60,747 bases of DNA, taken from positions 1 to 60,747 of the forward strand of contig JAHFEW010000016.1 in the NCBI GenBank assembly GCA_023248215.1, in the 5' to 3' direction. The position numbers and the translations under genes are program-made. Source of the stretch: Nitrospira sp. Its GTDB lineage: Bacteria; Nitrospirota; Nitrospiria; Nitrospirales; Nitrospiraceae. Below the pieces are notes generated by a model, which saw only the letters and a list, made by a program, of their open reading frames with translations, made no database searches and was not told the DNA's origin. This document shows positions 33,562 to 39,208 of the stretch, one piece after another (within the stretch, counting starts at the first letter, position 1; every line of letters starts with the position of its first letter).

Positions 33562-34794
33562 CTACACGCGGTCTCCGATGGGATTCCACTCGTGGTCGCG
33601 TTCGACCGCATCGATCAACCGCTCAAAAATATCGGGGATCGCACCGGTGACTCGGCTCCAATTCGAGATCATCGGCACCCCGAGCGGGTCTTCCAAAAAC
33701 GTCTCCGTCGCGATCTTCATTCCCTTGAGAAATACCTCGACGGCCATCCGTTCTTCATGTCGGTCGAACTGTAGGCTGTTGATGGCGGCATCATTCTGAT
33801 AGCGGGTGATCGCCTCCTGGGCTGCCTGCAGGTAGGTCGCCCGTAAGGCCTTCAGGACTGCTTCCGATAACACCACCCCTTCGCTCGCGAGATTTCGGAA
33901 GAGCGACTTGGTGATATCCACACACATTTTCTGTAACCCTTGATCGGCATTGTCCGCCGATAGGACTTGGTGCTTGTGCTCGTACGCATCGGCGATATCG
34001 GCTTGGCAAATTCTCCTGAGCGCACAGTTGCGATAGATCTCGGCGAGGACTCCCACCTCCAGTCCCCAGTCGCCGGGAATCCGGTTGATCCAGGCCAAAT
34101 CCCGCACCATGGCAAATTCACCCGCCAGGGGATAGCGGAAACTATCCAGGAATGTCAGCAACGGATGGGATCCCACCACCTGCTGGAGACTCCGGATCAG
34201 CGGCGTGAGATACAGTCGCGTCACCCGGCCATGGAGGCGATTCGTGACCCGGCTGTAGTACCCCTTGCAGAATTCATAGCCCAGATTGGTGTTGACGATC
34301 GGATAGCAGAGCCTGGCGAGATATTCCCGGTTGTAACTGAGAATGTCACAGTCGTGGAGCGCAATGACGTTACTCTGGCCGCGCGCCAAGACGTATCCGA
34401 AGGCCATCCAGCAGCCGCGGCCCTTGCCCTGGAGACCCGTATCGATTTCGGCGTGGGCCAGCAGCTTGAGGATGTCCTGAATGCCTGTCCCATCGTTCCA
34501 GACGATCCGGACCCGCTGGGGCAGCACCGCAAAGAACTGTTTGGCCAGACGAAACTCCAGCGCCGAGGCTCGATCCAGCGAGATCACGATCTCGTTGACA
34601 TAGCGGATGTCTTTCAAGACCTGCACGATGTGCTTGAGCGCCGGGTTTTCGAGTTCCGAATACAGCGAGGGGAGAACCAGGGCGATCGGATTCGCCGCCG
34701 CATGCCGTTCCAATTCTTTTTCCAGCTGATCGAGATTGGAGGCGCCCAGACGGTGCAGCACCGTCACGAGTCCGTTCTGATGAAAATCCGACAT
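33562..34794 (-). CDS. GT81-type glycosyltransferase (glucosyl-3-phosphoglycerate synthase-like)
   Basis: This 410-residue GT-A enzyme has the family opening FHQNGLVTVLHRLG, then IALVLPSLYSELENPALKHIV, GKGRGCWMAFGYVLA, and the metal-binding ALHDCDIL near residue 157. The acceptor-side segment RYPLAGEFAMVRDLAWINRIPGDWGLEVGVL follows, then YEHKHQ. These match the synthases that join a sugar nucleotide to 3-phosphoglycerate for glucosyl- or mannosylglycerate, which are osmolytes. ATG 34794 has GGAGG 4 bases upstream. The following phosphatase gene expected for the pathway is not seen here, so the exact product is uncertain. Confidence 0.8.
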   Translation of the reverse strand: MSDFHQNGLVTVLHRLGASNLDQLEKELERHAAANPIALVLPSLYSELENPALKHIVQVLKDIRYVNEIVISLDRASALEFRLAKQFFAVLPQRVRIVWNDGTGIQDILKLLAHAEIDTGLQGKGRGCWMAFGYVLARGQSNVIALHDCDILSYNREYLARLCYPIVNTNLGYEFCKGYYSRVTNRLHGRVTRLYLTPLIRSLQQVVGSHPLLTFLDSFRYPLAGEFAMVRDLAWINRIPGDWGLEVGVLAEIYRNCALRRICQADIADAYEHKHQVLSADNADQGLQKMCVDITKSLFRNLASEGVVLSEAVLKALRATYLQAAQEAITRYQNDAAINSLQFDRHEERMAVEVFLKGMKIATETFLEDPLGVPMISNWSRVTGAIPDIFERLIDAVERDHEWNPIGDRV

Positions 34795-34923: not shown

Positions 34924-36219
34924 CTACTGAGCCGGAGGCATAGCCTTGCTGGTCACGACCGACTTGACGATCTTGGCTCGTTTGACGGATTCCAGGAAGC
35001 GGTCCGGAGGTTCCGGTTTTGGCAAGTTGACTTCGACGGAGTACCAGCCCGACTTCATCGGCCCTTTTTTAATACCGTTAAGTTCCTGAACCAAATCCTC
35101 GATACTCTTCTCAGTGGTGCCATCCTGGAATGCGACCCAAAACATGAAGGCCTGACGGTCTGTTTCGCGGAGCCCATCTGCAACCGGGGTCGACACGGCT
35201 GCGTCTTTGGCGGTGTCATTCTTGGCCAGCACCGTGGACTTGGGCGCAGCATTGGCTTTCGCCACTTCCAGAGAGGTGAGTGCCAAACGGGCATGCAACT
35301 CTCGATTGCGGCTTTCCAGGAGCGCGACTTGCTTGATCAAGGTTTCGTTGACCGACTTGATCGACTGGAGATCCTGGCGCACCAATTCTCGCTCGGCTTC
35401 GACCGTGCTGACCGCGACGCGAATGCCGTTCTGAACTTCCTGTGCGACGCCGGTCTTCACCGTCTGGAGATCTTCCTGGACGGTGACGACTTGTGTGTTC
35501 AATTTCTGCTGGGCAAGGGTGACCGTATCAACGAGATTATTCAACTGCGCGATCCGTTCCTGCTCGGATCGAGAAATCGCCACTGCCGCCGCCTGTGCCT
35601 CAACCAACTGTGCCAGCTGTTGGTGCACGCGATCAACCTGCTCTTGTGTCGATTGCCGGGCTGCCAGTTCTTCTTCGAGCTGATGCGCCCGGTCGTCCGA
35701 TCCCATCCAACTCGGCACCCGTTCAGCCAGCAACGCGACAACGCCCACGGCAAGCACGATCTGTGCGAACGCGGTCGTCATGGTCCAGATGGGAGTCGCG
35801 CTCGCCGCTGGTTTGGACGTTTCCGAGGGCAACCCCATTGCGGCAGCCAAGTGAGCCCACCAACGAGGAGCCGTCTCGTACTGCACCTGGAGCGAACCGC
35901 CGTCGAAATGGTTCTCGACGTGAATGGTCGCGGCACCCTTGCCAACGGGGATACGCACATCTTTGTGGCCGGCTTCGGGCGCGACACAGCCTCCAATCAA
36001 CACGCCGGACTCGCTCCTGATTTCTAAATGTTGAATGCTCCGCTCGCGGGCCGTGAAGGCGAAGGAGGGATCGGTGTGCGCACAATCCAGCATCCCGACG
36101 CGCTCGTGGTTGACGAGCACCTGGAGAAGACCCGGGCGTTCTTCAGTCGCGCGTCGCGGCTGGTCATCCAGGGCGTCAAGCAGATGTTCGCGATAGTCGT
36201 TGAGCTCTGGTGCTTCCAT
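34924..36219 (-). CDS. Single-span coiled-coil membrane protein
   Basis: This 431-residue protein has a cytoplasmic N-terminal domain of about 140 residues (including RERSIQHLEIRSESGVLIGGCVAP), one membrane span (TAFAQIVLAVGVVALLAERV), a long coiled coil of about 140 residues (ELAARQSTQEQVDRVHQQL onward), and a C-terminal domain (DRQAFMFWVAFQDGTTEKS to SVEVNLPKP). ATG 36219 has GAGGAGG 7-8 bases upstream and lies inside the preceding gene. The overlap with a sigma-like gene suggests a membrane-linked partner such as an anti-sigma factor, but no anti-sigma domain is recognised. Confidence 0.65.
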   Translation of the reverse strand: MEAPELNDYREHLLDALDDQPRRATEERPGLLQVLVNHERVGMLDCAHTDPSFAFTARERSIQHLEIRSESGVLIGGCVAPEAGHKDVRIPVGKGAATIHVENHFDGGSLQVQYETAPRWWAHLAAAMGLPSETSKPAASATPIWTMTTAFAQIVLAVGVVALLAERVPSWMGSDDRAHQLEEELAARQSTQEQVDRVHQQLAQLVEAQAAAVAISRSEQERIAQLNNLVDTVTLAQQKLNTQVVTVQEDLQTVKTGVAQEVQNGIRVAVSTVEAERELVRQDLQSIKSVNETLIKQVALLESRNRELHARLALTSLEVAKANAAPKSTVLAKNDTAKDAAVSTPVADGLRETDRQAFMFWVAFQDGTTEKSIEDLVQELNGIKKGPMKSGWYSVEVNLPKPEPPDRFLESVKRAKIVKSVVTSKAMPPAQ

Positions 36220-37138
36220 GGTGCCGTCCTCCTCGATCCCCTCCAAAGAGAGCCAAGACGCCTCCCTTTTTCAGCGGATGGATATGGAGATTGACCTGCG
36301 GCTTCAACCCGTTGCTGGCCTCGGTTTGCCGGCGATCTGCCACTTCCATGAAGCAGTCGCGGCAAAAGGCCAAATGCCAGACGCGGTAGTCGTGGCCGTA
36401 GTCATCGTGAAATAGTTGACCCCACTTCTGTTCAGAGAGGCAGGGATAATGTTCCGGTTCACTCTTTCGATAATGTGACTGCAAGACCGGCATCAATCGG
36501 TCGACTTCGTGATTCAGGTGGTCGGGCCTAGTCAGTAACTCCTGTTCCAGCACTTCTATTTCCGACCCACTTAACCCTGTTTCATTCATCGTGCGTTGCC
36601 ACCCCGATTGGCGCCAACGCTCGAAGTTTTTATAGACCCGCTGGCTTTCAGCCTGGCCGAAGCCCAGCAACTTCACCACATGGGCCTGACTGAATCCATA
36701 GAAGTGATAAAACAGCGTGATCAAGGCGTCGCGGCTGACGACGGCACGCGAGGCCAGTCCGTCTAGAAATCGCCCCACCGGCGTCAGCAGCTCCTTGTGA
36801 TAACAGAGGGGGTCAGGCTGGCTGAACGATTTAGCAATCAGACTATCCAAGAGGAAGAACGGCCGGCAGGGAACTTCGGCACGACCGAAGACCACAAAAC
36901 GTTCTACCAACTCGTACCCCCACCGGAGCGCCAGCTTCTCATGCGTGATATCGTCGCCCCATTGATTCGTTTCACGAAGAAACCGCTTGGTTTGACCCGT
37001 CGCCCGGTCCAACAATTCCGGCAAAGACTTCGTGACCAGCTCGTCGAACTCTCGTTCGGTGGTCACGACATTGTTGAGTCGTGCAGAGAAAATCTGACCG
37101 TCTCGCATAGTCTTTCCATCCGGCAATTTCGACGACAT
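36176..37138 (-). CDS. Sigma-region-4-like regulatory protein
   Basis: This 320-residue protein has a middle helix-turn-helix section (DALITLFYHFYGFSQAHVVKLLGFGQAESQRVYKNFERWRQSG) that resembles region 4 of RNA polymerase sigma factors, and a CxxC in HLAFCRDCFMEVADRR near residue 262. No clear region 2 is visible, so it may not be a full sigma factor. The last 44 bases overlap the coiled-coil membrane protein gene. ATG 37138 is used; ATG 37108 is an alternative with GGAAAG upstream. The pair probably forms a signalling unit. Family assignment is tentative. Confidence 0.6.
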   Translation of the reverse strand: MSSKLPDGKTMRDGQIFSARLNNVVTTEREFDELVTKSLPELLDRATGQTKRFLRETNQWGDDITHEKLALRWGYELVERFVVFGRAEVPCRPFFLLDSLIAKSFSQPDPLCYHKELLTPVGRFLDGLASRAVVSRDALITLFYHFYGFSQAHVVKLLGFGQAESQRVYKNFERWRQSGWQRTMNETGLSGSEIEVLEQELLTRPDHLNHEVDRLMPVLQSHYRKSEPEHYPCLSEQKWGQLFHDDYGHDYRVWHLAFCRDCFMEVADRRQTEASNGLKPQVNLHIHPLKKGGVLALFGGDRGGRHHGSTRAQRLSRTSA

Positions 37139-37333
37139 AATGGCCAGGTTCTCGTGAAATTACAATTCGACAAGTCCCCCTATAAGAAGACCACATTTGT
37201 CTACGGATGGTCAATGGGGGGGAAAGTGCGGAAACGCAACACTGTATCAGGGTGAAACAGGCGTTCCCGCCTGCCTTGCAGGAGCGGCGAACTCGGATGA
37301 GCAAGGGGCCGAACCGTGGAGGATGGGAGCAGG

Positions 37334-38986
37334 TTACGGTCGGTCGGTGGAGAGGCGTTTCGCCAACCTTCGCGCCAGGCGTATCATGGCCGGAGAGCGG
37401 TCGGCCGGATCGAGCAAGACATTGATCACATAGGGTTGGCTTGAATCCCCCAAGGCCTTGGCCAGGGCCTGAACGAATTCTCCGTGGGTTGCCACCCGGG
37501 ATCCCTGTCCGCCGCCGATCAGTTCGCAGATTCGTTCATAGTGCCACTCGTGGATATCATTAAAAGGGCCTTCCAGAATCTCGCGCTCGGTCGAATACCC
37601 ACGGTTGTTGAGGACAATCACCACCGGAGCCTGTCGGTAGCGAACCGCCGTGGACAACTCCGACCCGGTCATCTGGAAGGCGCCGTCTCCCACGAGGACG
37701 ATCGGCCGCAGGGACGGATCGGCAAAGCCCGCTCCGATGGCTGCGGGAACGGCAAATCCCATCGACGTGTAGTAGGCAGGCGACAGAAACTCAAAGCGGC
37801 GGTGGACGTGGAGATCGACCGAGGCGAACAGGGATTCTCCCACATCGGCGATGACCAGTGTCTTCTCATCCAGCACCGTATCGAGGTGACGGAATACCCC
37901 CTGGAGGGTGACGGAGGCATGCGCCGGCGGCAGTGCCTCATCAAATTTTTGCACCGGCGGCAGCCGTGGTGTAACAAACGAGGGGAGGTGGGTGCCGGCC
38001 AGCCCCTTCACGAAATCTTCAAACCGGATGGAGTCATACCGGTGGTGTTTGATGGCCACGCGATCTGCCGTGGCATGGATGGTATGACCATCAGAGAACA
38101 GGGCGCTACGGGCATCCAAGTCTTCCACGTCGGAGAGAATCGAGCCGAGGATGAGCAGGCAATCGGTTTGGTTCACAAACTCCTTCACTTCGTCGCGGGC
38201 CACCAGCCCGCTGTAAACGCCGACGTAGAGGGGATGGTCTTCACGAATGATCGACTTTCCCAGGAGCGTCGAGGCGATGGGGACATTGAGGCGCTCCACG
38301 AGGTGGGTCAACTCGTCGTGGAGCCCGAAGCGTCCCACTTCGGCGCCGGCCAGAATTACCGGACGCTTCGCCGATTCCAACATCGTCCGCACTTCGGCCA
38401 GGGCTTCCGCCAAGGCGGCATGGTCTGTCTGTTCATCCTGGCTGCCGTTCGAGTGCGAGGGCCCGGCGAGCGGAACATGCACCATGTCTCGCGGGATCTC
38501 AAGATAGATCGGGCGTCGATAGCGCAACAAGGCCGCGAAGGCGCGATCCATCTCACGCTGAGCCGTGACGGGGTCTTCCAAGCTGACCGCCGCCACCGTC
38601 ATTTTCTCGAATACTTCCCGTTGCGTCGAAAACTCCCGCACCATGTGGTGGAGGTAGGGATTGCGCGCACGCTCCGACAGCCCGGGTGAGCCGGTCAGCA
38701 AGACGACGGGCGATCGCTCCGCATAGGCGCAGGCAATGGCATTGACCGTATTGAGTCCGCCGACACAATAGGTGACGCAGAGGGCGCCGATGCCGTTGAT
38801 GCGTGCATAGGCGTCGGCGGCAAAGCCTGCACAGTCCTCCCGGGTGGTGCCCACGTGTTGAATGGGAGAGGACTCCATCAATTTATACAAGCCAAGCACG
38901 TAGTCGCCGGGGATGCCGAAGATGTGACGAACGCCAAGTTGGTGGAGTCGATCCAATACTGCGGTCCCGATGGTCTGAATGGTCAT
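37334..38986 (-). CDS. ThDP-dependent 2-keto-acid decarboxylase
   Basis: This 550-residue enzyme has the pyruvate/indolepyruvate decarboxylase layout. The N-terminal PYR domain has GVRHIFGIPGDYVLGLYKLM and the catalytic Glu in TTREDCAGFAADAYAR. The C-terminal PP domain has the ThDP motif GDGAFQMTGSELSTAVRY ending in VIVLNN. It decarboxylates a 2-keto acid to an aldehyde; substrate could be pyruvate, indolepyruvate or a branched-chain acid. ATG 38986 is the first that fits the family start. It stands alone, divergent from rlmI. Confidence 0.85.
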   Translation of the reverse strand: MTIQTIGTAVLDRLHQLGVRHIFGIPGDYVLGLYKLMESSPIQHVGTTREDCAGFAADAYARINGIGALCVTYCVGGLNTVNAIACAYAERSPVVLLTGSPGLSERARNPYLHHMVREFSTQREVFEKMTVAAVSLEDPVTAQREMDRAFAALLRYRRPIYLEIPRDMVHVPLAGPSHSNGSQDEQTDHAALAEALAEVRTMLESAKRPVILAGAEVGRFGLHDELTHLVERLNVPIASTLLGKSIIREDHPLYVGVYSGLVARDEVKEFVNQTDCLLILGSILSDVEDLDARSALFSDGHTIHATADRVAIKHHRYDSIRFEDFVKGLAGTHLPSFVTPRLPPVQKFDEALPPAHASVTLQGVFRHLDTVLDEKTLVIADVGESLFASVDLHVHRRFEFLSPAYYTSMGFAVPAAIGAGFADPSLRPIVLVGDGAFQMTGSELSTAVRYRQAPVVIVLNNRGYSTEREILEGPFNDIHEWHYERICELIGGGQGSRVATHGEFVQALAKALGDSSQPYVINVLLDPADRSPAMIRLARRLAKRLSTDRP

Positions 38987-39208
38987 TGTGCCTCGGCTGT
39001 CGAGTGATAGGTCGTCGGGTGGCGTGCGGTCCACCTGTCTTCCTGCAGCAAACCATAGGTGCTAGGGAAGGTCAAGCGCGCGAACAATCGTCGCATGTGC
39101 ATCGTGCCTGGTTGCTTCGTGGCGTGATTTCAGGCACCCTCGTGGGCCATCTGCACAGCCGCCTTACGGGATCGAACCAAACATCTCTACACCGAACTCA
39201 CGACAACT

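Follow-up and report, generated by a model that had tools for sequence, protein, structure and literature searches.

Among described systems, the closest to the gene pair considered here are ECF sigma factors with membrane anti-sigma factors, such as sigmaE-RseA and AlgU-MucA, which share with it a two-gene operon, a sigma2/sigma4-like order of folds, and a partner that crosses the membrane once and has parts on either side of it. The pair differs from them in that its first protein, P1, has no sigma-family sequence match, carries a 100-residue tail, and is preceded by a candidate operator rather than an ECF promoter, while its second protein, P2, has a beta domain and no known anti-sigma domain. 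Some ECF groups, CorE and ECF48/52/53, have a C-terminal extension that is Cys-rich or of the ZAS type (PMC8999054). They resemble P1 as sigma-like proteins with a metal-type Cys/His extension at the C-terminus but, unlike P1, are recognised sigma factors, and the membrane span of ECF48/52/53 is part of the sigma chain itself, while in the present pair it lies in P2. The zf-HC2 (ZAS) anti-sigma domain, PF13490, shares with the P1 tail the C-x(n)-H-x3-C-x2-C pattern and the HL-x-x-C-x-x-C core; the spacing is 21 residues in P1, whereas the zf-HC2 proteins of this genome have about 25, the P1 tail falls below PF13490 detection, and the motif sits here on the regulator, not on its partner. PhyR, finally, has a sigma-like domain that shares the sigma2-like rows of the fold comparison with P1.

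Nitrospira are major nitrite oxidisers. At the level of literature listings on Nitrospira with sigma or anti-sigma factors, we found no description of the P1–P2 pair, and the listings held little on Nitrospira regulation. The P1 family is new to the libraries searched, while systems of this kind, in which a membrane partner holds a soluble regulator, have been described; the pair itself is probably an undescribed envelope-signalling switch.

Gene Organization and Distribution of the P1–P2 Pair

The window, i.e., the whole stretch of 60,747 nucleotides of Nitrospira sp. DNA that was analysed, carries the pair with the following neighbours.

33562–34794: downstream of P2, gene best matching the glucosyl-3-phosphoglycerate synthase (gpgS) model, below the cut-off of that model
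34924–36219, minus strand: P2, one-span membrane coiled-coil protein of 431 aa, start ATG at 36219 (ORF, conservation, AF2 model)
36176–36219, minus strand: overlap of the P1 end and the P2 start, 44 nt (ORF coordinates)
36176–37138, minus strand: P1, sigma-like HTH protein with a putative zinc-type tail, 320 aa from the first ATG (ORF, conservation, fold)
37334–38989, same strand as P1: upstream of P1, thiamine-diphosphate decarboxylase-like gene, resembling indolepyruvate/phenylpyruvate decarboxylase

The overlap of the two genes, read from the open reading frames in the initial annotation, proved to be real, and both frames are maintained as proteins in relatives. The same 44-nt spacing is found in 23 of 72 adjacent pairs, window included, and the spacing of the others runs from overlaps a little shorter than this to gaps of up to 219 nt in model coordinates. 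The gene model of P1 probably needs correction to a start at Met11 (position 37108, 310 aa), because conservation does not extend to the ATG at 37138 (L061), which also overlaps the putative -10 box described below.

Over its full length, P1 is 91–97% identical in 26 other full-length genomes of the genus, and P2 is 76–93% identical; P1 relatives in N. defluvii contigs are 95–97% identical. A search for relatives found P1 in 34 of 61 genomes, and in a sample of the phylum it is present in 79 of 395 genomes, all within the order of the window. P2 is present in 78 of the 395, or in 74 after four weak partial matches (G121, G150, G197, G374) are excluded from the count. Both proteins co-occur in 73 genomes, in 72 of which P2 lies directly downstream of P1, both being on one strand; in the one non-adjacent case (G003), each lies at a contig end. 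A P2 fragment without P1 was seen in one genome (G289).

The genes flanking the pair differ between genera. The gpgS-like gene follows it in the genus of the window and in L019, L022, L024, L087, and L088, and follows P1 alone in L021, while in several loci of the sister genus g6 the pair is followed by genes for a GT4-type glycosyltransferase and an MFS transporter. We note that a gpgS-like gene downstream of P1–P2 in several genera would allow a link to osmolytes. The retention of the pair despite the change in its neighbours is the best evidence that P1 and P2 work as a unit, and we consider it very likely that they are a real, conserved regulatory pair working together.

This constancy bears on a quite unlikely reading in which P1, as a transcription factor, does no more than control P2, the latter being a structural envelope protein that does not regulate P1. 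The occurrence of P1 without P2 in 6 of 79 genomes (G040, G057, G280, G327, G344, G385) would agree with it, as would the related repeat found upstream of P1 in family f3, which has no P2; against it, P1 in Nitrospiraceae is constantly followed by P2, often with an overlap, and a conserved domain of some size precedes the membrane span of P2. In f3, P1 lies beside a receiver-domain gene and is divergent from a large hybrid histidine kinase (L057, L089, L091, L094; neighbour domains were checked in L057). P1 residues that track the presence of P2 were also sought and set aside: 28 conserved positions associated with P2 differ in f3, but a P2-less sequence of family f2 keeps 27 of them, so that they carry no information on P1–P2 contact.

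P1 Has a Probable Sigma-Like Fold and a Cys/His Tail

No identifying match to P1 was obtained in Pfam, NCBIfam, PHROGs, or PDB sequences; the NCBIfam matches were at chance level, one being ribosomal S14 on the CxxC, and sigma families were absent from the Pfam matches of 14 P1 members. Profile searches of the genome itself at E ≤ 10 with Sigma70_r2 (PF04542) and Sigma70_r4 (PF08281; Sigma70_r4_2) did not reach P1. Direct membership in a sigma family by sequence was rejected, as P1 scored no better than shuffles with single-sequence HMMs made from 34 ECFs of relatives. Three parts of the protein can nevertheless be delimited.

36818–37060, minus strand: P1 residues 27–107, helical domain ranked closest to sigma region 2 (VIA-align rows 1–23; D63-x-x-H66-E67 at the place of ECF D-x-x-Q-E)
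36578–36781, minus strand: P1 residues 120–187, sigma region-4-like four-helix HTH (AF2 and hhalign register)
36353–36442, minus strand: P1 residues 233–262, C-x21-H-x3-C-x2-C, zf-HC2/ZAS-like (invariance and hhalign)

For profile–profile comparison, a 33-member P1 alignment was set against 34 ECF sigma factors from the same order, an earlier run with 8 ECFs having been too shallow. The HTH, whose AF2 helices span residues 120–132, 136–147, 151–158, and 162–187, falls in register with ECF sigma4 with an hhalign score of 27.4, against 19.6 for the best of 30 column shuffles; region 4 alone scores 18.7, above 100 of 100 shuffles (best shuffle 18.33). The HTH thus weakly matches sigma region 4, and the basic residues K170 and R174 in this region are invariant. 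A LuxR-type HTH found no support in a comparison with only five LuxR HTHs, which scored 8.3, below shuffles. A phage, plasmid, or transposase origin was rejected, with no PHROGs family and no match in plasmids or phages. The initial annotation had named a match of the HTH to a different family, such as one of this kind, as something that would count against the pair; no such match was found, and the HTH leans to sigma region 4 over LuxR.

Region 2 is also in register by hhalign, with D63-x-x-H66-E67 on the D-x-x-Q-E motif of the genome's own ECFs, at a score that 6 of 100 shuffles also reach. The D-x-x-Q-E motif contacts the polymerase clamp.

The AF2 model of P1, made from a 14-row alignment, has a mean pLDDT of 72 and a pTM of 0.62, with residues 21–50 and 71–100 forming blocks that average pLDDT 85–90. 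Foldseek with this model gave no match at E ≤ 0.001, and 6 of the 50 rows listed were sigma-containing chains. With VIA-align (433 chains), the first 23 of 50 rows were sigma factors, sigma/anti-sigma complexes, polymerase initiation complexes, or PhyR, where three (9m9e_F, 9n9q_C, 9a50_A) were counted as sigma from chain length and context, not from the title; the first protein of another kind came at row 24 with Z 4.0. The best rows were 6kop_F (rmsd 2.7, 71 aligned), 9m9e_F (rmsd 2.5, 79 aligned), and 6dxo_A (rmsd 2.7, 71 aligned), all with Z 6.8, the highest value for P1, and values below 8 may reflect a common helical arrangement only. Most of the 23 rows align P1 residues 27–107, as region 2. 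Because Z stays below 8, region 2 of P1 is taken as probable only: the model indicates that a region-2-like domain probably exists, and a sigma-like fold of P1 as a whole is reasonably likely.

The first description of the pair, as similar to sigma/anti-sigma systems but outside known families and lacking a clear region 2, stands in part. The two-gene pair is conserved and has no family match, and region 2 is indeed unclear by sequence; its absence finds no support in the predicted fold, in which residues 27–107 rank sigma region 2 first and suggest a region-2-like domain.

P1 might also be a sigma mimic, i.e., an anti-anti-sigma factor like PhyR that binds an anti-sigma factor instead of DNA. 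The PhyR sigma-like domains among the top fold rows and the receiver-domain and hybrid histidine kinase genes beside P1 in f3 speak for such a role; however, Pfam finds no receiver domain in P1, and its conserved HTH with the invariant K170 and R174, together with the upstream repeat, sets it apart from PhyR. We regard a mimic as very unlikely.

The CxxC noted initially in P1 is C259-x2-C262 and turned out to be part of a larger motif, since all 33 aligned P1 relatives keep C233, H255, C259, and C262. Compared with a small zf-HC2 alignment (7 of 31 examined loci passing the Cys/His pattern), the tail scored 22.8 by hhalign against 14.7 for the best of 40 shuffles, over only 13 columns; a zf-HC2 (PF13490) profile search of the genome itself at E ≤ 10 did not reach P1. 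Its invariant residues suggest that the tail may bind zinc. Elsewhere in the same genome (L147:1492–2508), a zf-HC2-like anti-sigma candidate lies beside an ECF factor and has an apparent long coiled coil after a hydrophobic span.

P2 Has a Single Membrane Span between a Predicted Beta Domain and a Predicted Coiled Coil

According to the AF2 model (pLDDT 71), P2 begins with a helix (residues 4–26), which is followed by four parts.

35872–36129, minus strand: residues 31–116, predicted eight-strand beta domain N-terminal to the span (AF2 model; without a clear fold match among those listed)
35722–35787, minus strand: residues 145–166, transmembrane span (AF2 and hydrophobicity)
35251–35682, minus strand: residues 180–323, predicted coiled coil (AF2: one 144-residue helix)
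34945–35157, minus strand: residues 355–425, predicted C-terminal ferredoxin-like domain (AF2 and fold comparison)

The initial view of P2 as a one-span protein with a long coiled coil was borne out: a single hydrophobic span, at residues 147–165 in P2, is found in 11 of 11 aligned members, with no second window above 1.2, and the 144-residue helix of the model shows a heptad bias around its centre and contains only two Pro or Gly residues. The C-terminal domain has the order beta-alpha-beta-beta-alpha-beta over residues 355–423, with ferredoxin-like matches, subtilisin propeptides included, among the rows listed (Z 6.5–8.1). No anti-sigma match to P2 was found in Pfam or NCBIfam, where the matches were weak and mostly to coiled coils; matches in PHROGs and PDB sequences lay for the most part in the coiled coil, and we discounted them as resemblance between coiled coils. 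The charges flanking the span are only partly clear; from these and by analogy with anti-sigma factors, the N-terminal domain would be cytosolic and the C-terminal part periplasmic.

An Inverted Repeat Upstream of P1 Is a Candidate Operator

Three elements lie at or upstream of the P1 start in the window.

37137–37144, minus strand: putative -10 box GCCATTAT, 58 nt from the left half-site (picked by eye)
37166–37201, minus strand: conserved element GACAAAT-N-CTTGTCGAA, genus variant of the GGACAAA-N20/21-TTTGTCC inverted repeat
37242–37260, strand not assigned: second palindrome CTGTTTCA-N3-TGATACAG upstream of P1

The inverted repeat GGACAAA-N20/21-TTTGTCC was first spotted by eye upstream of P1 and then scored over its 14 half-site bases; 12 loci reach 13–14 of 14, and in each of them 0 of 200 shuffles score as high. 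An exact scan of g6 for GGACAAA-N20-22-TTTGTCC gave matches in 42 of 59 genomes, at 54 distinct places, and none for the reversed control. In 26 of 29 g6 genomes with a located P1, the repeat lies at most 200 nt upstream of the gene, the exceptions being G143, G295, and G240, with P1 of the last at a contig edge. Five genomes of the g6 sample without P1 (G033, G159, G208, G255, G284) hold one site between them, in G033, away from any P1.

In the genus of the window, the variant GACAAAT-N17-20-CTTGTCGAA occurs upstream of P1 exactly once in 27 of 29 genomes (control 0), and G012 and G016, the two that lack it, have a contig that starts inside P1. The repeat here rests on this genus-wide conservation, because the degenerate form alone is within shuffle range (21 of 200 shuffles for the window). 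There is only one repeat per genome in this genus, so that no regulon is visible there. The 14-base score gave no support for the repeat in L021, L020, L087, L088, L057, L058, and L090, where shuffles often match the best places.

A related repeat, AACAGTACARA...TTTGTACAAC, is present in three loci of family f3 (L089, L091, L094) and, with changes, in L093; its score is weak, and it is the best-scoring place upstream of P1 in four of seven aligned f3 loci. Since f3 has the repeat without P2, P1 is the shared candidate binder. Judging from its location, we think it somewhat likely that P1 binds the repeat.

The -10-like boxes (GGCATACT, GCCAYTAT, and similar) were chosen by eye, and the distance from them to the left half-site is 56–58 nt in four loci of the window genus, 67–68 nt in L019, L020, L022, and L024, and 76–77 nt in L056 and L086; L059, at 63 nt, is outside this phasing, and no -10-like box was picked in L021, L087, and L088. 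In g6, a box GGCACAAT lies 21–23 nt after the right half-site in 20 of the loci listed. Distances that change in steps of about ten suggest a protein bound to one face of the DNA and not a -35/-10 pair.

These data weigh on the alternative that P1 functions as a highly divergent ECF-like sigma factor, with P2 as its membrane anti-sigma factor and the repeat belonging to another regulator of the operon. The predicted fold would give P1 the domain order sigma2–sigma4, the hhalign register places H66-E67 of D-x-x-H-E-K over D-x-x-Q-E of ECF region 2.2, and P2 crosses the membrane once, with parts on either side, as anti-sigma factors do; region 2, however, is not significant by sequence, both half-sites are kept at 20–21 nt upstream of the glycosyltransferase and MFS genes too, and the stepwise variation of the distance to the -10 box is unlike a -35/-10 pair. 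Given the conserved operator, an operator-binding regulator is at least as likely as a working sigma factor; the latter role for P1 seems unlikely to us, and so does this alternative as a whole.

The second palindrome, CTGTTTCA-N3-TGATACAG, is conserved in most of 18 aligned loci of the genus and resembles an operator of another regulator.

Candidate Target Genes

The repeat precedes the GT4 glycosyltransferase gene in five of five g6 loci examined (12–13 of 14, gap 21) and the MFS transporter gene in eight of nine close orthologues (13–14 of 14). In 12 of 32 loci, the gene divergent from P1 encodes a small secreted protein with many Lys and acidic residues, with none in the four loci of the window genus that were tested. 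In L097, L098, L084, and L095, the small secreted proteins encoded divergently upstream of P1, on the minus strand relative to it, consist of Lys/Glu-rich repeats of the DEKKDEKKDKGGHVV type. The repeat recurs at a third site (L243, L244), but this one is within the coding sequence of a response regulator and was discarded as conservation of the coding region; single sites inside a gene (L247) and in a genome without P1 (L248) were left out of the regulon. One genome has the repeat near a putative AsmA-like gene (L246). The region upstream of gpgS shows no repeat-like block in the alignment, though gpgS follows P1–P2 in several genera.

Proposed Model

Our preferred reading, to which we give a probability of about 0.5, is that P1–P2 is a membrane-coupled transcription switch of Nitrospirales, in which a sigma-like, operator-binding P1 is controlled by its one-span membrane partner P2. 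P1 would bind the inverted repeat, probably as a dimer, and would control its own operon and a few envelope genes, i.e., those for the glycosyltransferase, the MFS transporter, and the small secreted Lys/Glu-rich protein. P2 would sense an envelope condition via its periplasmic coiled coil and ferredoxin-like domain and would hold or release P1 via the cytosolic beta domain, with the zinc-type tail of P1 as a possible point of contact or control.

A more specific version of the switch, which we offer as tentative and rather doubtful, makes P1 an ECF descendant with a sigma2–sigma4 fold that now acts as a dimeric inverted-repeat operator binder at housekeeping-sigma promoters, has a zinc anti-sigma-like tail built in, and keeps a separate membrane partner. 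If this is true, P1 would stand for a class of membrane-coupled regulators that is new and has been retained in many Nitrospiraceae.

Taken as a whole, P1–P2 is a regulatory module that is conserved yet unannotated, and a concrete operator candidate and a set of candidate targets make its function directly testable. If P1 is a sigma-derived operator binder, it would show how a sigma factor can turn into an ordinary transcription factor.
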